From positions 1-64,000 of the forward strand of contig JAJRSE010000017.1 in NCBI GenBank assembly GCA_024278955.1: a stretch of 64,000 nt of DNA, written 5' to 3'. The notes under the pieces were generated by a model. That model was given only the letters and a program-made list of their open reading frames with translations, ran no database searches and was not told where the DNA came from. Below are positions 3,700 through 57,182 of the stretch, in pieces. This stretch comes from Planctomycetota bacterium (lineage in GTDB: Bacteria; Planctomycetota; Planctomycetia; Pirellulales; Lacipirellulaceae). Position numbers and translations under genes: made by a program. Position 1 is the first letter of the stretch, and each line of letters begins with the position of its first letter.

Positions 3700-4992
3700 C
3701 TAAAAAGGATTCTCGCCGTCATCAAACGGGTTGTCATCCTCTGCCGGTTCTTCGGTGGCCGGCCCTTCAGGCGACTCTTCTGCTACGGCACCTTTCTTTT
3801 TGCTTTCTTTCATTTTCTCTTCAGCTGCCATTTGCGGATAAAGCTTTGGTTCACGGGCTCCGATTTCATGCAGGCATTGCACCAACCCGCTCTCGCTTAC
3901 CAGGTAAAGACGATCCGACTGATCGTTAGCTAGCGCCGAAAACCCTGCGCCTGCTCCCACGCGATTCACAACCTTTCCGCTTTCCGAGTCAAGAACCAAC
4001 AGCGTTCCGAACCGATCGAGTCCGTAGACGTGGTGAGCACCTTGGGCGACAAACTGTGCAACACCAGATGCAGACCAAAGACGTCGACCTTCCGTCGAGT
4101 CGACTGCATGTAGCACAGAAGATTCCGTCGCGACGTACACCCGGCTACCAATAGCCGATGGCGGGCTAATGATCGGTAACCCTGTCGAATAACGCCAAAG
4201 CTCTGCACCACTTGCCTGATCGTAGCAGTACACGTAACCGCCCAACGACGTGGCGTATAGTTTATCCCCCCGAACCGTAGGGGAGGAGACAATTTTGTCA
4301 TGGGTTTCTACTCGAAGCAAAACTGTTGGGCCTGAGGTGATGCCGAAGTAAATCTGCCCGCGATCAGTAGCCCAAGTGATAAAGTCTCCCGTGACCAGCG
4401 GTGGCAAAAAGATGTGCCCCATCGACTGGTATTGCCAACTAGGAAGCGTAGGATCTTCCAACGAAAAACCTTCGACGCGGCCGCCCATCTGCGCAATAAA
4501 CACATGCGTCTCGCTAATCGCAGGAACGGTCAAAGCAACGTTTCCAATTTCGCGAGACCACAGCAGATGTCCGTCGCCTCGATCAAGCACGTAAAGCGTC
4601 GATCCGTTGACCAACGCAACATGCTCGGCATCGACTGCCAATCCGGCGCTCGGGCGATCAGGTCGTCCCGCTTCAGAAACCCACAACGTTTTCCCCGACC
4701 TCGTGTTGATTGCATGGATCGTTCCTGCCGAGGTGAGGGCAAAAATTTGCTCGTGGTCTAAGGTCCAATCGATCACGCGGTTCCTTGCTCGGTCAACCCG
4801 TACCTGAGAAAACCAGGCACGCTCGAGCCCAACTCGCGAGGCTGCCTCGAAACCAAGAAGCCGATCTGCCGAAAAAGCTTGCGAAGTACCAAACGCTGTA
4901 GCAAAGACAATCGCCACCATGAAAAGTCCATGGCAAACTCCGCGCAATCGATTCCATGAACACTTCTCGGATAAAAAAGTCGCACTCAACAT
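3700..4992 (-). CDS. Secreted PQQ-type beta-propeller protein
   Basis: A 430-residue exported protein. An N-terminal signal (hydrophobic GLFMVAIVFATAFGTSQAFSA) precedes repeated propeller blades with the PQQ/BamB-like pattern, for example TSAGTIHAINTRSGKTLWV, YVLDRGDGHLLWSREIG, YCYDQASGAELWRYSTG and HAVDSTEGRRLWSASG. Such proteins act as binding scaffolds; no dehydrogenase active site is visible. The tail of ~50 residues is rich in Lys and Glu and low in complexity, ending DDNPFDDGENPF. Partner and ligand are unknown. It is transcribed divergently from the 1333-aa gene. Confidence 0.8.
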   Translation of the reverse strand: MLSATFLSEKCSWNRLRGVCHGLFMVAIVFATAFGTSQAFSADRLLGFEAASRVGLERAWFSQVRVDRARNRVIDWTLDHEQIFALTSAGTIHAINTRSGKTLWVSEAGRPDRPSAGLAVDAEHVALVNGSTLYVLDRGDGHLLWSREIGNVALTVPAISETHVFIAQMGGRVEGFSLEDPTLPSWQYQSMGHIFLPPLVTGDFITWATDRGQIYFGITSGPTVLLRVETHDKIVSSPTVRGDKLYATSLGGYVYCYDQASGAELWRYSTGLPIISPPSAIGSRVYVATESSVLHAVDSTEGRRLWSASGVAQFVAQGAHHVYGLDRFGTLLVLDSESGKVVNRVGAGAGFSALANDQSDRLYLVSESGLVQCLHEIGAREPKLYPQMAAEEKMKESKKKGAVAEESPEGPATEEPAEDDNPFDDGENPF

Positions 4993-5423
4993 AATATCTA
5001 TTTCTCAATTGAAGAGGGTTTGCGAGGAGCACACAAAGCACGAGTGTTCCACCGCGGCTTGGTTTTCGAGTGCCACTGCTGGCTCGTCCAGCAGTGCGAA
5101 GCGGGTACCCGGCGTCCACTGCTGGACGAGCCAGCAATGGCACCCAACTCGAAATTTGAGCTGCGGTAGACTACTAGGCCAGTATTCAGTCACTCAAAAC
5201 ATCTTAACCACTGAGGAGGGCCGCGACAAAATGAATCTCGAAGTTGCCAGAACGCTGGTTTTCGCGATTCAGGCCAAATTTCTTCCCCTCTTGCCTGCGA
5301 CCCTGGCACTAGACCGCATATACCAGGGTCCTTTACGATGGACTCCCGTGCTTGAAGCTCCTTTGTGGCAGCGCAAGCTGACGGTATGTCGCCAAGGTTT
5401 TCTGGAAATCGGTGTAGTCAAGC
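4993..5423. other. Intergenic region with a 130-bp palindromic element
   Basis: Holds the hairpin element at 5044-5177. Between 5178 and 5423 an ATG at 5231 preceded by GAGGAGG opens a frame that runs on through the next gene's start; codon choice there does not look coding, so I do not call it, though a short leader peptide is conceivable. This is also the presumed promoter area for both divergent flanking genes. Confidence 0.5.
5044..5177. repeat. CTAG-ended ~130-bp hairpin element, copy A
   Basis: Two internal palindromes: GTGCCACTGCTGGCTCGTCC followed by CAGCAGTG, then CACTGCTGGACGAGCCAGCA. The right end reads GAGCTGCGGTAGACTACTAG, the exact complement of the left end of copy B at 11207. 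The left end here is degenerate (GAGTGTTCCACCGCGGCTTG). Copies B and C lie in the opposite orientation. Confidence 0.85.
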
Positions 5424-8400
5424 GTGAAAGACGGATCAACAAACTCGGATACGAACGAAGCAGCCCTGCTAGAAGCGGTGGTCGGCTATCTCAACTTCTC
5501 CTCGGGAGCAAGCGATCCCAGCTTCCTGCGTCATCTGAACAAGCTCTTTCGTTTCATCGAAACCAAGACCTCGCGGGAAGACAGCCTCGGCGAGCTGATC
5601 CAGCAGCTCTCCGCCACCCTCGAACGCCTCCACTCGGCAGGCGGTGCCTTTGGCGACGTAGCCCAAGCCCAAGCCGTCGTCGAGCTTCTAGGACATCACT
5701 TTCTTCCAGCCTACCAAAAATTCCATCACGACCTATTATTCCATCAAACGCCCGCCAATCTTTGGCGACCTTTTTTCATCGGACGAGCCTTCGAGGCCAT
5801 ACTCTCGCAAGGCGCCCCTTGGGATGAGCACGAACGAATCACTCAAGCAGCGATCTCGCAGATCAACGACTACGTCGGCTACCGTCCCGTCGCGATGCTC
5901 GACTCAGGAAGCCTGTCTGAGCCCTATCCCCACGAATTTGTGCGACCCATTCCCGTCTATCTCGTGGGAGTTGGTGTCGCGAGTGGGCGATACGAAAAAA
6001 TTATTCAGCTCGCTTTAGAAACTCTCGGCAACGCCGACCAAGATATCCTCAATCGAGCTTGGTTCGACCTCAACCGGCTTGAAGAGATCGCTATCGACCC
6101 TCGCGCCTACGACTTCGACCACCCGGTCAATCGCAGGCCAAACTACCAATTCGGTCAATGGGATCCTCACCAAATTTCTGGCGCTGGCTACTACTCTCGT
6201 TTTGTACTTCAACAAATCACGCTCGACGCATTACTCTCTCGCTGCGAAGACGAAACCTGTTTGAGCGAAACCGAAACCGAACAACGCTGGATGGATGCTG
6301 CCGCCGTTTTGGCCGGCACCATGCTCATGGCTTCTGCCGTCAGCGGCGACGGACCAGGACGACACGATTCGACCGTCACTCTTTCGACCTTACTCCCCCA
6401 CATTGCCGCCTATCGCGACGACTTCTACGAACAACTGCTCGCCCAAGCCCAAGGCGAACGCAGCAAACGCCTGCTCGAAGATGCCAAGCGGCATAAGCAG
6501 CCCTTCGGCGCTGCCCGACAACATTTGAACCAAGAGCTCGGAAGACGCCGCGCTTTGCAAATGCAGCGTGTCCATCTGGCCCATCTTTATGCTCGACTAG
6601 GCTACCCCGAAGCCGCCCAGCGCCAGGCCGACTCCGTTCGTGTAGCCGCAGCTCGTATGGTGAGCGGCATCTACTGCCACCTCACCGCCGGACACAACGC
6701 CATCGATTCAGGCACCCTAGAAACCGTGGCCGACCAACTAACGGCTTGCGAAGATCTAATTTACCGCGGCATCGAGTGCGGCGCCCTTGTCGACCCCTGG
6801 AATGTCGTCGGCTTTGCTGGCAACTTTAGCCTCTTCCCTGCCCTAGAAAATACGGTTCACGACCGCCGGGTCGATGGGCTTATCGAACTCGTCGAGCAAG
6901 TGCTCGATCTTGGTGCGAGGGCGTGGAGCGAAGCCGCAGCGATCGACAACAGCGAGCTCGAACAACAGTTTTCAACCATTTTGGTCCGCATGGCCTCGTG
7001 GTGGGATAAGTTCGCCACCTTCACGGTCGAAGACGTCCAGCGGCTCGTCGCGAAAGAAACCGAAATCTCTGCCAATCTCGTCTCAGGTGCTCTCAATGCT
7101 TGGCACAAAGCCGGTGCCGCCGCAGGCGATGTCGGCTTCTGGCGTATGTTTGTCGATCAGTTCGATACTTCCAAGTCCTTCCAGCTTGTCATCGAAGCGC
7201 TCCTCGACCATAGCGACACCGTCGCCTCTTGTGCCTTGATGATGCAATGGGTTAGCCAAAAAGATCGCACCCCGCTCGAAGAAAGCGACAGCTCGTTCCG
7301 CAGGCTCTCTTTTCAATGGTTGGCCGTGGTCGAAGCCAAGCAAGTAGCTCAAGGAAAAAACCATCGCGACGAAGTCGCCAAATTCTTCGCCTACCTCGAA
7401 GCCAACGCCGAGGAATACTGGCAAGTCCCATCGCTCACTCTCGATATCCCTTTCGACAGCCTCCTCGATGAAAGCCCCGACGACCTCGACGATCTGTTCC
7501 TCGAAGACGAACCCTACGACGATGATGATGATGAGGATGAGGATGGAAATCAGGAAGACGAGGAAGAAGAAGTTTTCGAGGCCGCGTACGAAGAAATGGT
7601 CTACCGCGACAGCTCCGACGATGGCTTTGAAGGCGATCTTGTCGACGAAGGAGGAATCGACCTCGAAGACTCCGAATGGGAATACGAAGCTCAGCGGCTT
7701 GAACAGCGCCTCGACTTCCTAACCACCGTAGCCAATCTCTGGAAACATGCCGCCATTGTTTGGGGTACCACGGCCACCAACTCGGACGAACCCTCCGAGC
7801 TATTCAGCCAAGGCCTCTCCCAAACTACGACCAACTATCGCCAGCTAATCGAGCTGCTCGAAACGGTCCATGGCTGCCCACTTCCCCAGCCCTCCGGGTC
7901 GCACGCCTCCTTGGTCGAGTTCGACCGACTACGCACCATCCAAGAAGGACTAGTCCAACGAATTATCATCACCTGCGTCGAAACACGCGATGCCGCACGT
8001 CTACTCTCTGCGACGCATGGCCCAAAAATTCCTGACGACGACCAAACTTTCGGCAATCCGGTCGATCTTCTTTCCGTAAAGATCTTACACGCCGTACTAG
8101 CCGGCGATGTTACAACCGTCCGATCGCTGTGGGATGATTTCATCGCAGCCCTTAAACCCTGCCCACTCCTCTACATTCCCCACTCCCGCAACGGCGTGCC
8201 CCGCAAGATCGTTGCCGCCCGAGGCCTCCAACAACTACTCTACGATCTCCTCGGTTGGCTTCCGCGGTTAGGAATGATTCGCGAAACTTGCCAGTTGCTC
8301 AGCGTTGCGCAAAAGATGGAGCTCGAACATCCCGTCGGGCGGGGCGCCGTCACCGAGTTTGATAGCCTGTTCGAGAATGGCTACCAAGCGATCGTTCGTT

Positions 8401-9425
8401 CCATGGTTGCTTCTGCCGAACTTTGGAATAATGACCAGGCATCTCAGCAGGAGCAACAGGCCGACCACATGCTTGTCGATGCCTTACAGCAGCTTACCGA
8501 AAAACAACTCGACCGTTGGCTTACCCATAGCCAATCGTTGAGACTCAACATTGTTGAGCGACTGGCCGATGCCAAACGCTGGGACCGCTTTCGCAATTTC
8601 GTAAAAAAATACGGTGAAGATCTCTTTGACCAGCGATTTATGAGCCTAGGGAATCTACGAGGTATTTTACACCAAGGTGTCGACGAGTGGCTAGTCAGTC
8701 TCGAAGAAGACCCCGACATCGAAGACGAAATCCTGCTGATCAAAGATCTTAATAACGGATTAGATCGCGAAGAAGCCGTCGACATGCTTTCCCTGGCCAT
8801 CGAAGCGGTCGTCGAAAACTACCGAGCCTACCTCGACTACAATACCACCACCACTCAGTCGGATCACGGCCAACAACTTTACACGCTGATTGATTTCTTG
8901 CGTCTGAGAGCAACCTATGACCGAGTCGCCTGGAAACTTAAACCGGTCGTTTGGGCGCACGAAATTCTTGTTCGACAGCAACGGGCCTTTGCCGCAGAAA
9001 TGTGGTGTCAAACTTTCGCCGAACGTACTGCCGAAGAAGCCGATGCCCACATTGCCCGGCTCGCCACGCTCAGTCAAGAACACGGGATGCATCTTGCTAC
9101 GGTAGCCGACCGTGTGTCTGAGCGATTCATACGTCCGTTGATGATCGATCGCGTCAGGGCTCTCGTCGAACCGGCCCTCACTTCCACCGGCAAACACGGC
9201 CAAGAAGTTTTTGCCGCGCTCGAACGAGAAATCAATAGCCTCGCCAAGGAACCCTCCGGCGCAGGCCTCGACATCCCCGATTGGCTCGAAGCCTTAGAAG
9301 AAGAAGTCACCACCGCCCGCTCGCGATTCAACCACCAACCCCCCTCCGACCGCCTAACCAGCCACATCGGCCAAGTCCAACTCACCTGGCAAGAGATGCT
9401 AGAGCAACTCGAAGACCCCAAGTAG
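5424..9425 (+). CDS. Large protein of unknown function, 1333 residues
   Basis: I do not recognise a domain. The protein looks cytoplasmic (no signal peptide or membrane segments) and mostly helical, with many short Leu/Ala-rich amphipathic stretches as in helical-repeat scaffolds. A strongly acidic stretch at about residues 690-760, including DDDDDEDEDGNQEDEEEE, divides it into two halves. The start is GTG; no ATG occurs until about residue 150 and the ribosome binding site is weak, so the start is uncertain. Codon use is even along its length, which supports one long real gene. The 527-aa coiled-coil gene follows on the same strand after 174 bases, so the two may be co-transcribed. Confidence 0.75.
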   Translation: MKDGSTNSDTNEAALLEAVVGYLNFSSGASDPSFLRHLNKLFRFIETKTSREDSLGELIQQLSATLERLHSAGGAFGDVAQAQAVVELLGHHFLPAYQKFHHDLLFHQTPANLWRPFFIGRAFEAILSQGAPWDEHERITQAAISQINDYVGYRPVAMLDSGSLSEPYPHEFVRPIPVYLVGVGVASGRYEKIIQLALETLGNADQDILNRAWFDLNRLEEIAIDPRAYDFDHPVNRRPNYQFGQWDPHQISGAGYYSRFVLQQITLDALLSRCEDETCLSETETEQRWMDAAAVLAGTMLMASAVSGDGPGRHDSTVTLSTLLPHIAAYRDDFYEQLLAQAQGERSKRLLEDAKRHKQPFGAARQHLNQELGRRRALQMQRVHLAHLYARLGYPEAAQRQADSVRVAAARMVSGIYCHLTAGHNAIDSGTLETVADQLTACEDLIYRGIECGALVDPWNVVGFAGNFSLFPALENTVHDRRVDGLIELVEQVLDLGARAWSEAAAIDNSELEQQFSTILVRMASWWDKFATFTVEDVQRLVAKETEISANLVSGALNAWHKAGAAAGDVGFWRMFVDQFDTSKSFQLVIEALLDHSDTVASCALMMQWVSQKDRTPLEESDSSFRRLSFQWLAVVEAKQVAQGKNHRDEVAKFFAYLEANAEEYWQVPSLTLDIPFDSLLDESPDDLDDLFLEDEPYDDDDDEDEDGNQEDEEEEVFEAAYEEMVYRDSSDDGFEGDLVDEGGIDLEDSEWEYEAQRLEQRLDFLTTVANLWKHAAIVWGTTATNSDEPSELFSQGLSQTTTNYRQLIELLETVHGCPLPQPSGSHASLVEFDRLRTIQEGLVQRIIITCVETRDAARLLSATHGPKIPDDDQTFGNPVDLLSVKILHAVLAGDVTTVRSLWDDFIAALKPCPLLYIPHSRNGVPRKIVAARGLQQLLYDLLGWLPRLGMIRETCQLLSVAQKMELEHPVGRGAVTEFDSLFENGYQAIVRSMVASAELWNNDQASQQEQQADHMLVDALQQLTEKQLDRWLTHSQSLRLNIVERLADAKRWDRFRNFVKKYGEDLFDQRFMSLGNLRGILHQGVDEWLVSLEEDPDIEDEILLIKDLNNGLDREEAVDMLSLAIEAVVENYRAYLDYNTTTTQSDHGQQLYTLIDFLRLRATYDRVAWKLKPVVWAHEILVRQQRAFAAEMWCQTFAERTAEEADAHIARLATLSQEHGMHLATVADRVSERFIRPLMIDRVRALVEPALTSTGKHGQEVFAALEREINSLAKEPSGAGLDIPDWLEALEEEVTTARSRFNHQPPSDRLTSHIGQVQLTWQEMLEQLEDPK

Positions 9426-9448
9426 CCGCTCGCCAGCCCCTTCCTCCT

Positions 9449-9472
9449 TGTTCTTGGCGAACTTGGCGGTTC
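9449..9472. repeat. Half-site of a CTTGGCG palindromic repeat
   Basis: TTCTTGGCGAACTTGGCGGT matches, inverted, the left arm of the interrupted palindrome at 57027-57046 (ACCGCCAAGTTCGCCAAGAA). No second arm is nearby. Confidence 0.45.
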
Positions 9473-9599
9473 AAAAAATCGATCTTGCTACTCTGCCAAA
9501 AGGTAGTAGACGGCTGTCCATCAACTCATTCTAATGAAACCCTAGACGCGGCATACAAAATCTGTTGGTCAAACCAATCGGCCTAGCGAGGTATCAAGG

Positions 9600-11183
9600 A
9601 TGTCTGAGACTCTTAAGGAAACGCTTCCCATTTCGGAAATCGAAAACCTTCCGTATTCCATTCCGCTCGAACTCAAAGTAGAAGACCGCGATACCATTCG
9701 CTCCTTGGTCGAGTACAACGAAGGACCCGAACGCGACGACTACGCCCTCGAAGCCCTCAAGATCGGCGTCCTCGCCTTGCGCCACGCCGCCGGCGCACTC
9801 GATACCGATTTTATTCAACGCGAAACCACCCGACTGGTCGAAACTCTTGGCCACGAGCTAGACACCCACACGCGCCAAGCCAACGATCGGCTGGCCGGTT
9901 CGCTCAAAGAATATTTCGACCCCGAAGACGGTCGCTTCAGCCAGCGAGTCAAGCTGCTCACCTCCGACGACGGCGATCTTTCGCGAATGCTTCGCAACAT
10001 GTTCGATGGCGACAACTCCCAGCTTGCCAAAACTCTGCTTTCGCATTTCGGCCAAACCAGCCCGATCATGAAGATGCTCGACCCCAACCAGTCGCAAGGC
10101 CTTTTCGCCACGGTACGCGATAACGTCGACCAACAACTTACACAAAACCGAGAACGACTACTAAAAGAGTTTTCGCTCGATAACCCCGAAGGAGCCTTGC
10201 GCCGACTCACCGGCGAACTCACCGCCAAACATGGCGACTTCACCAAAGACATGCAGGGCAAACTCGACGAAGTGGTCAAAGAATTTTCGCTCGACGAAGA
10301 AAATTCCGCTCTCAGCCGCTTGGTTGCCAACGTCGACAACGCACAAAAAAGAATCACCCAGGAATTCTCGCTCGACAACAAACAGTCGGCGCTCCACAAA
10401 CTCAAAGAAGAACTCCTCACCATTCTTTCTGCCCATGTCGACTCGAATGCCGAATTCCAAACCGAAGTCAAAGTCGCCCTCGGCAAACTGGTTACGAAGC
10501 GAGCAACCGAAGCGACCGGCACCCAGCACGGCATCGCCTTTGAAGCAGCCGTGTTCGAGTTTCTCTCACGCGAGTCACAGCATATTGGCGATATCGCAAC
10601 CTCGACGGGCAACACCACCGGCTTGATTAAAAACTGCAAAGTCGGCGATTGCGTGATCGAACTGGGCCCCGACAGCCCCGCGTCTGGTGCAAAAATTGTG
10701 ATCGAAGCCAAAGAAGACGCGAGCTACGGCCTGGCTCGTGCCCGCGAAGAAATGGAAAAAGGCCGAAAAAATCGCGGTGCCAACTGGGGACTGTTCATTT
10801 TCTCGAAAAAAACCGCACCCGAAGAACTTGAGCCGTTCCAACGCTATGGGCACGATCTTTTTATCGTCTGGGATGCTGAACAGCCCAACTCCGACGTCTA
10901 TCTCAGGGCCGGCATTGTGACCGCCCGAGCTCTCTCGCTACGAGCCGAACGTCAGACCGAATCGCAGCAAGCCGATTTCAATTCCATCGACAAAGCCGTT
11001 TTAGAAATCGAAAAACGAGCGACTAATCTCGACACCGTAAAAAAATACGCCGAGACGATCAGTTCTTCCAGCGAGAAAATCATCGACCGTGTTTCAAAAG
11101 ATCGAAAAGCACTCGACCGGCAAATTCTCACGTTACGAGAGAAACTCACCGACCTAAAATCGTTGCACAAAGTAGACGAGTAG
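9600..11183 (+). CDS. Coiled-coil protein with PD-(D/E)XK nuclease-like domain
   Basis: 527 residues with no signal peptide. The N-terminal half is charged and helical, with the phrase EFSLD recurring at residues 190, 228 and 255, each followed by an Asp/Asn-rich turn and a GAL/SAL helix: a degenerate ~27-38 residue repeat. Residues ~310-440 resemble a restriction-endonuclease-like fold: HGIAFEAAVFEFL, then GDCVIEL (Asp350), then IVIEAK (Glu369, Lys371), matching the D...ExK arrangement, then WGLFIFSKK. The C-terminus is another coiled coil. The layout recalls RmuC-type proteins, but a structural or targeting role cannot be excluded. Nuclease activity is inferred from the motif only. Confidence 0.65.
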   Translation: MSETLKETLPISEIENLPYSIPLELKVEDRDTIRSLVEYNEGPERDDYALEALKIGVLALRHAAGALDTDFIQRETTRLVETLGHELDTHTRQANDRLAGSLKEYFDPEDGRFSQRVKLLTSDDGDLSRMLRNMFDGDNSQLAKTLLSHFGQTSPIMKMLDPNQSQGLFATVRDNVDQQLTQNRERLLKEFSLDNPEGALRRLTGELTAKHGDFTKDMQGKLDEVVKEFSLDEENSALSRLVANVDNAQKRITQEFSLDNKQSALHKLKEELLTILSAHVDSNAEFQTEVKVALGKLVTKRATEATGTQHGIAFEAAVFEFLSRESQHIGDIATSTGNTTGLIKNCKVGDCVIELGPDSPASGAKIVIEAKEDASYGLARAREEMEKGRKNRGANWGLFIFSKKTAPEELEPFQRYGHDLFIVWDAEQPNSDVYLRAGIVTARALSLRAERQTESQQADFNSIDKAVLEIEKRATNLDTVKKYAETISSSSEKIIDRVSKDRKALDRQILTLREKLTDLKSLHKVDE

Positions 11184-11206
11184 CTACGACCAGTAACTAG
11201 TAGTCT

Positions 11207-11332
11207 ACCGCAGCTCAACATTCGAGTTGGGTGCCACTGCTGGCTTGCCCAGCAGTGGGCGCAGGGTACTCGCTTCGCACTGCTGGACGAGCCAGCAGTG
11301 GCACCCGAAAACCAAGCCGCGATGGATACTAG
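11207..11332. repeat. CTAG-ended hairpin element, copy B (intact ends)
   Basis: Best-preserved copy. The left end is CTAGTAGTCTACCGCAGCTC and the right end, read inward, is CTAGTATCCATCGCGGCTT, giving imperfect terminal inverted repeats. Inside are two palindromes, TGCCACTGCTGGCTTGCCC/CAGCAGTG and CACTGCTGGACGAGCCAGCA. It fills the gap between convergent genes and its right end supplies the stop codon of the ExeA-like gene. Confidence 0.88.
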
Positions 11333-12135
11333 GCGACTCCAGGTAAGCAAATCGCGTCGTGTGCCGATTGAATCGTCGCCGAACAAACCATCTCGCTCCC
11401 CACGCCCGATCCAGCAAGTAACGCATACTCAGCCAGTCGGTTCACTTGCCGTGGCACGCCACCGCTCAGGCGGTGAACTTCGGCAAGCGCCTCGTCCTCG
11501 AACAAGGGGCGTTCCGATCCGGCTTCGACCAGCGAAAGTTGCAAGTATCCCACGGTATCCAGCTCATCCCACGGCTGCAAATCAATCCGCAAATCGATCC
11601 GATCCAGCAGACCCTGGCCAAGACGGCTCGCTTGTTTGCGATTGGCAGCTAACACCAGCGAGAGCCCCACGTCACCACGAATTTGGATATTCGCCAACCG
11701 TCCCAAATGCGTCAGCAAGTCGGGCCCTGCCTGATCGGCGTTGTCCAGTAACAAGACCGTCGTCATGCCCTGCATTTGATTCTCGCCGAGACGATCGGTC
11801 AGTAGACGAGCCAGCCGCACCAAATCGTCTTCAACTCGAACCCGCGATTTCAGTGCCACGCCAAGCTGGCAATAAAATTCTCGCGCCGAAAGCCCAAGCA
11901 AATCAACCTGAGCCACAGCCCGGCTACGCTCCCGGCACTCCTGGGAAAATACTTCGAGCAGCAACGACTTTCCCAAACCTGGCTCGCCAAGCACAAGCCC
12001 CAGCCGCCTTCCGTTATCGACCAAAAATCGCAATCGGGCCCTCGATTCGCGTTGGCTAGCGCCCTCGAAAAAAGACTGCGGATCGAGCCCACCAGAAAAG
12101 GGCGTCCGGTCGAGTCCCCAATGCGATTGATACAT
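11329..12135 (-). CDS. ExeA/GspA-like AAA ATPase
   Basis: 268 residues. It begins MYQSHWGLDRTPFSGGLDP, the usual opening of ExeA-type ATPases, followed by Walker A GEPGLGKS (residues 50-57), Walker B TTVLLLDNAD (Asp131) and a sensor-like LSLVLAAN. ExeA/GspA proteins use ATP to help assemble secretion or peptidoglycan-linked complexes, and many planctomycetes carry stand-alone homologues. No peptidoglycan-binding domain is present. The TAG stop lies inside the terminal CTAG of the repeat element at 11207-11332, so the C-terminus may have been cut back by that insertion. No secretion genes are adjacent. Confidence 0.8.
   Translation of the reverse strand: MYQSHWGLDRTPFSGGLDPQSFFEGASQRESRARLRFLVDNGRRLGLVLGEPGLGKSLLLEVFSQECRERSRAVAQVDLLGLSAREFYCQLGVALKSRVRVEDDLVRLARLLTDRLGENQMQGMTTVLLLDNADQAGPDLLTHLGRLANIQIRGDVGLSLVLAANRKQASRLGQGLLDRIDLRIDLQPWDELDTVGYLQLSLVEAGSERPLFEDEALAEVHRLSGGVPRQVNRLAEYALLAGSGVGSEMVCSATIQSAHDAICLPGVA

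Positions 12136-57026: not shown

Positions 57027-57182
<156 letters not shown>

Follow-up and report, generated by a model that had tools for sequence, protein, structure and literature searches.

Two large genes that lie side by side in a genome of the family Lacipirellulaceae (Planctomycetota bacterium, assembly GCA_024278955.1, contig JAJRSE010000017.1) were analysed within the first 64,000 nt of the contig; this full 64,000-nt stretch is called the window. Gene A (5424-9425, + strand) has a GTG start and encodes 1333 amino acids (aa), and gene B (9600-11183, + strand) has an ATG start and encodes 527 aa. Taking all the evidence together, the best explanation, which we consider probable, is that these are two unrelated genes that are adjacent through old Pirellulales synteny and do not form one system. 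Both genes are intact and lie on the same strand, with a gap of 174 nt. Their homologues (36-80% identity) are full-length across families, and because this conservation extends to many relatives, both open reading frames (ORFs) are real genes rather than chance ORFs. Neither protein reached the curated cut-offs of Pfam or NCBIfam: both belong to unnamed families.

The two genes have very different distributions. Gene A was found, by single-sequence and profile searches, in 43/44 genomes of the family and in 243/278 genomes of the class Planctomycetia, almost always as one copy; 20 of the 35 class genomes without a match were listed, and all 20 fall within one family (f6). No gene A was found outside the class: 39 of 392 genomes of the phylum carried it, and every one of these was a class-mate. 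Because it is near-universal there, gene A is an old single-copy core gene of the class Planctomycetia; it occurs in hundreds of genomes that lack B. As nearly every class member keeps it, it is probably a housekeeping gene, which is the alternative that the initial annotation of this DNA had attached to universal conservation.

Gene B is patchy: it was present in 43/278 class genomes, in 33/44 genomes of the family (26 of the 29 good ones, and among the B loci the named relatives Lacipirellula, Adhaeretor and Botrimarina), and, without A, in at least six other phyla, with records from Chloroflexota, Myxococcota, Pseudomonadota, Acidobacteriota, Spirochaetota and Thermodesulfobacteriota. In a quick tree of B, the family copies formed one well supported group of 19 rows, consistent with vertical inheritance within the family.

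Among the 33 family genomes that bear B, the gene was located directly 3' of A (117-905 nt) in 14, 2.7-10 kb downstream of A on the same strand in four, and either over 100 kb from A or on a separate contig in 13; in the remaining two, the distance was ambiguous at contig ends. The order thus breaks up readily, and either gene is found in genomes that lack the other. The initial annotation had read a scaffold plus a nuclease as a possible pair for defence or DNA processing and had proposed co-conservation as the check: the class-wide counts for A and B do not run together, over a third of the B-bearing family genomes hold the two genes far apart, and the pair reading fails one of the refuting tests set by that annotation itself, because A and B occur independently. 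One point weighs against a complete separation: the A-B order also occurs outside the family at two loci (L172 and L173) that sit on other branches of the B tree. The arrangement is therefore old in Pirellulales and, given this old order, some functional link between A and B is conceivable.

The product of gene B is a nuclease-fold protein of the PD-(D/E)XK (Mrr-like) type with an intact catalytic triad. In the structural model, the core (residues 310-455; 10527-10964, + strand) has a predicted local distance difference test (pLDDT) score of about 90 and the order H-E-E-E-H-E-E-E-H, where H is helix and E is strand (H310-329, E332-335, E351-354, E365-371, H378-392, E396-402 for the first six elements), so that both hallmarks of the PD-(D/E)XK superfamily, the D...(E/Q)xK site and the alpha-beta-beta-beta-alpha-beta core, are seen in B. 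Residues D350 (codon 10647-10649, + strand) and E369-A370-K371 (the ExK site, codons 10704-10712, + strand) are invariant in 38/38 homologues, and E315 is present in 37/38. The best PDB matches of the core in Foldseek searches were Bax1 (8.9e-4), McrC, BamHI and MspJI, and the viral-model matches were giant-virus Mrr-domain proteins. The Pfam family Mrr_cat gave a weak match in 7/38 relatives (best E 2.5e-4) and none in B itself. Fold, Foldseek matches and triad thus bear out the PD-(D/E)XK-like site that had been proposed for the second gene, and the three residues that had been singled out for a conservation check (D350, E369 and K371) proved to be conserved throughout.

Outside the core, B is helical. 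Alignment shows that its N-terminal part contains the repeat EFSLDNxxSAL(x)RL three times (residues ~190-260; 10167-10379, + strand); in these repeats F191, S192 and L193 are invariant and F229, S230, F256, S257 and L258 are nearly so; some relatives have four or more such repeats before the core. A long coiled coil follows the core at the C-terminus. The helical parts were poorly modelled (predicted template modelling score, pTM, 0.34) and their placement is unreliable, a point against the explanation preferred here. B would be a metal-dependent DNA nuclease, which may oligomerise or assemble through its helical repeats; a repressor at its own promoter would normally keep B off and, once released, B would cut damaged or foreign DNA.

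The reading of B that survives best beside this one is a solitary genome-defence nuclease, a type IV/Mrr-like restriction enzyme of modified or foreign DNA that spread horizontally, and we regard it as possible, with the odds against it. It would account for the Mrr_cat similarity, for the patchy occurrence over several phyla and for the decay of B in several lineages: the gene is truncated in G187 (C1:4920730-4921932), present as stop-bearing fragments in G242 (C172) and G574 (C16) and frameshifted in G036 (L025), although assembly error is possible for broken copies in draft contigs. Gene B appears to be dispensable, since it is truncated or broken in several genomes. Against a solitary defence role stand the near-fixation of B in its own family with apparently vertical descent, its conserved operator-like control (described below), and its heterogeneous neighbourhoods in other phyla, where clustering of 921 neighbour ORFs revealed no recurrent partner. 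A family scan of 109 B neighbours returned scattered defence and housekeeping matches with no pattern; there was no matched control. B was also absent from phage records, and the plasmid matches were limited to two weak haloarchaeal ones, so a phage or plasmid origin of B was rejected. One distant B-like protein (24% identity) is encoded on a Haloferax plasmid (L217:7797-8987), where the neighbouring genes encode a UvrD helicase, an AAA ATPase, a VWA protein, an MBL-fold protein and two helicases, with the look of a defence cluster.

The feature that is new here is the upstream operator-like element that B has of its own. In the window this is a 17-nt sequence, TAGTAGACGGCTGTCCA (TNGTAGACGNNTGTYCA), at 9504-9520 (+ strand), 79 nt before the ATG of B. 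When the A-B gaps were aligned, the TNGTAGACGNNTGTYCA block stayed while its surroundings drifted. In relatives, the element is located 21-92 nt before B and closely follows, on the 3' side, a promoter-like pair of the form TTGC-N17-CATAYT (this pair is weak in the window itself), and the sequence GTAGACGNNTGTYCA was found upstream of B in L001-L018 and other loci. Every match of the element among the first 278 loci was in a B-bearing locus. In five whole genomes with B, the core of the element was single-copy and preceded B, including G020 and G001, in which B is parted from A. A weight matrix scan of 2.0 Mb gave scores of 15-28 for the B sites, and one non-B site scored above 20 (G009, 21.7). 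The element belongs to B and not to A, because it follows B away from A and is almost absent otherwise.

Gene B appears to be separately regulated, through a conserved promoter/operator-like element of its own. One observation tells against this: the G009 copy (L279:9990-10007, - strand) precedes neither B nor any obvious gene start. The B of G009 has no element. The operator-like role itself is suggested by position only.

A more specific version, in which LexA-type control makes B a repair nuclease inducible by DNA damage, seems to us unlikely. Its appeal lies in a likeness to the SOS box of Myxococcus xanthus (CTRHAMRYBYGTTCAGS; lexA site CTACACGTCTGTTCAG; PMC9705874): GTAGACGGCTGTTCAT has 12/16 positions in common with that lexA box. 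In addition, the position of the element, 3' of the TTGC-N17-CATAYT pair, is one at which a repressor would sit over the start site, and the E. coli motif is reportedly not the one used by planctomycete LexA (PMC3108266). By analogy, the likeness suggests damage control of B. On the other side, a match with a single published box could have arisen by chance, a LexA box should recur whereas the exact motif hardly occurs except at B, and no SOS gene with the motif was found in 0.8 Mb of one genome, a sample in which pattern searches gave no recA or lexA.

The product of gene A is an uncharacterised core protein whose general type, a helical scaffold, is familiar. No fitting family was found for it in Pfam, NCBIfam, PHROG or PADLOC; families of TPR and HEAT repeats gave sub-threshold matches only (CNDH2_M, E 0.035; TPR_4, E 0.27), and a profile search of the PDB yielded nothing below E 0.8. 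An AlphaFold2 model of residues 1-1200, made with a 53-row alignment, was confident (pLDDT 82.8, pTM 0.75), solenoid-like and almost wholly helical; its few strands are short and lie near 150-265 and 467-479. Two confidently helical halves flank a disordered linker (residues 676-749; 7449-7670, + strand; pLDDT < 50) that contains 38 D/E and 1 K/R, in agreement with the earlier description of the first gene as a helical scaffold split by an acidic block. Foldseek found no specific PDB fold for A, only generic long helical arrays with template modelling (TM) scores of 0.1-0.16.

Within the linker, a motif, FxAAYExxxYRDS(S/T)DDG (residues 718-734; 7575-7625, + strand), stands out by its conserved columns, with A720, D729, D733 and G734 invariant in 53 sequences. 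A conserved stretch within disorder is usually a binding peptide. The motif is a candidate partner-binding (docking) peptide because it is conserved inside disorder. Gene A would then encode a cytoplasmic housekeeping adaptor whose two helical arrays hold partner proteins and whose flexible acidic hinge offers the docking peptide; one partner would probably bind via the linker motif.

That A is some kind of enzyme, and not a scaffold, is improbable. In its favour, conservation is 82% in blocks 226-250 and 451-475, which contain invariant D, H, R and N; near-invariant runs of A read DPRAYDFDHPVNKRPNYxFGQWDPH and NTTTTQSDxG, and the small region 150-265 contains strands. Against it, no PDB enzyme fold matched, and as a whole A is built as one long array of helices.

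The most stable neighbour of A in Pirellulales is a divergent BamB-like beta-propeller gene (22/41 loci), and not B; in the window this gene lies at 3700-4992 (- strand; PQQ_2, E 3.5e-28). In part of the Planctomycetales (L275:12286-17077; also L267, L269, L270, L272 and L274), A has a MotA/TolQ/ExbB-type gene as its divergent neighbour, and this gene is followed by two genes that each encode a single N-terminal membrane segment and are ExbD/ZorB-like by look. In one Pirellulales genus (G235; L262:6908-7687, - strand), scpA, which encodes a condensin subunit, lies directly 3' of A (E 1.7e-35). A second copy of A, 45% identical, was seen in G018 (C152:6331-10473), a draft genome with 4% contamination; it is probably on a foreign contig, and is otherwise a paralogue.

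A two-component defence or DNA-processing system, with A as scaffold or sensor and B as effector nuclease, ranks last in likelihood among these readings and we give it very little credence: the tight same-strand spacing in 14 family genomes, the persistence of the order on two further branches of Pirellulales and the single B-like nuclease inside a helicase/AAA/VWA defence-like cluster on the Haloferax plasmid speak for it, but A and B are each widespread without the other, A belongs to the core genome of the class, which defence components do not, an upstream element is specific to B, and PADLOC gave no system match for A and for B only weak matches of coiled-coil type (E 1.1e-4 to the PDC-S06 coiled-coil stretch, and weaker ones to LmuB), the nuclease domain being unmatched.

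The rest of the locus is as the initial annotation laid it out, two large same-strand genes at this spacing and a convergent ExeA-like ATPase gene after them, with coordinates that match exactly. The ExeA-like AAA ATPase gene (11329-12135, - strand; AAA_22, E 2e-12) forms no operon with B. The two genes are flanked by a 130-nt inverted repeat made of two copies of a dispersed palindromic repeat: the left copy at 5048-5177 (+ strand), and the right copy, inverted relative to it, at 11197-11326 (- strand), where it separates the stop codon of B from that of the convergent ExeA-like gene. A third stretch of the repeat occurs in the window at 57094-57120. The half-site GTGCCACTGCTGGCTNGNCCAGCAGTG was found 121 times in the 4.6-Mb genome, and the reversed-pattern control 0 times; the repeat mostly forms ~74-nt intergenic hairpins, and resembles repetitive extragenic palindromic (REP) sequences, miniature inverted-repeat transposable elements (MITEs) or terminators. 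A composite mobile element bounded by the inverted repeat was ruled out, because the two copies belong to a repeat that is dispersed genome-wide and mark no mobile unit.

With A and B shown to be separate, a misleading candidate for a new defence system drops out, and two subjects of interest are left. Gene A, a single-copy gene for ~1300 residues with neither family name nor solved fold, in a class of unusual cell biology, is a concrete target for what is special in Planctomycetia, and published transposon data are available for the class member Planctopirus limnophila (PMC10632474). With gene B comes an unnamed PD-(D/E)XK family that spans at least seven phyla; its triad lends itself to mutation, and its operator could be used to isolate the regulator. 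We consider rather speculative, and would not bet on, a fuller picture in which A is a Planctomycetia-specific scaffold that serves a class-defining machine via its linker motif, and B is the repressor-controlled, stress-induced founding member of a PD-(D/E)XK nuclease family whose FSLD repeats assemble on DNA, outside the described restriction and repair systems.

Compared with known systems, A resembles the eukaryotic-type alpha-solenoids of TPR and HEAT repeats (Ski3, IFT-A subunits, importin beta) in being a generic long helical array; at TM scores of about 0.1-0.16 and without sequence relation, the likeness is one of fold class only. For B, three comparisons can be made. RmuC (PF02646) combines a helical or coiled-coil region with a PD-(D/E)XK-type nuclease core. 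PF02646 was not among the 25 Pfam families listed for the 38 B homologues, nor was it matched by B at E up to 1; it was absent from 71/71 Planctomycetota genomes, with or without B and including the genome of the window, while control genomes matched, and the idea that B replaces RmuC has no support since RmuC is missing whether or not B is present. Bax1 and McrC (PDB 6p4w, 8gy8, 6ut6) are the best solved-structure matches of the nuclease domain; Bax1 pairs with the XPB helicase and McrC with McrB, whereas no such recurring partner stands beside B. The third comparison is with the Mrr-like/type IV restriction enzymes (Mrr_cat, PF04471), which share with B the core order H-E-E-E-H-E and the D...ExK site; there are also the weak Mrr_cat matches in 7/38 homologues and the structural match to giant-virus Mrr-domain proteins. 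B differs from them in that it lacks an Mrr_cat match of its own and a recognised modified-base-reading domain, and in that its core is preceded by ~300 helical residues, which include the FSLD repeats, and followed by a coiled coil at the C-terminus.

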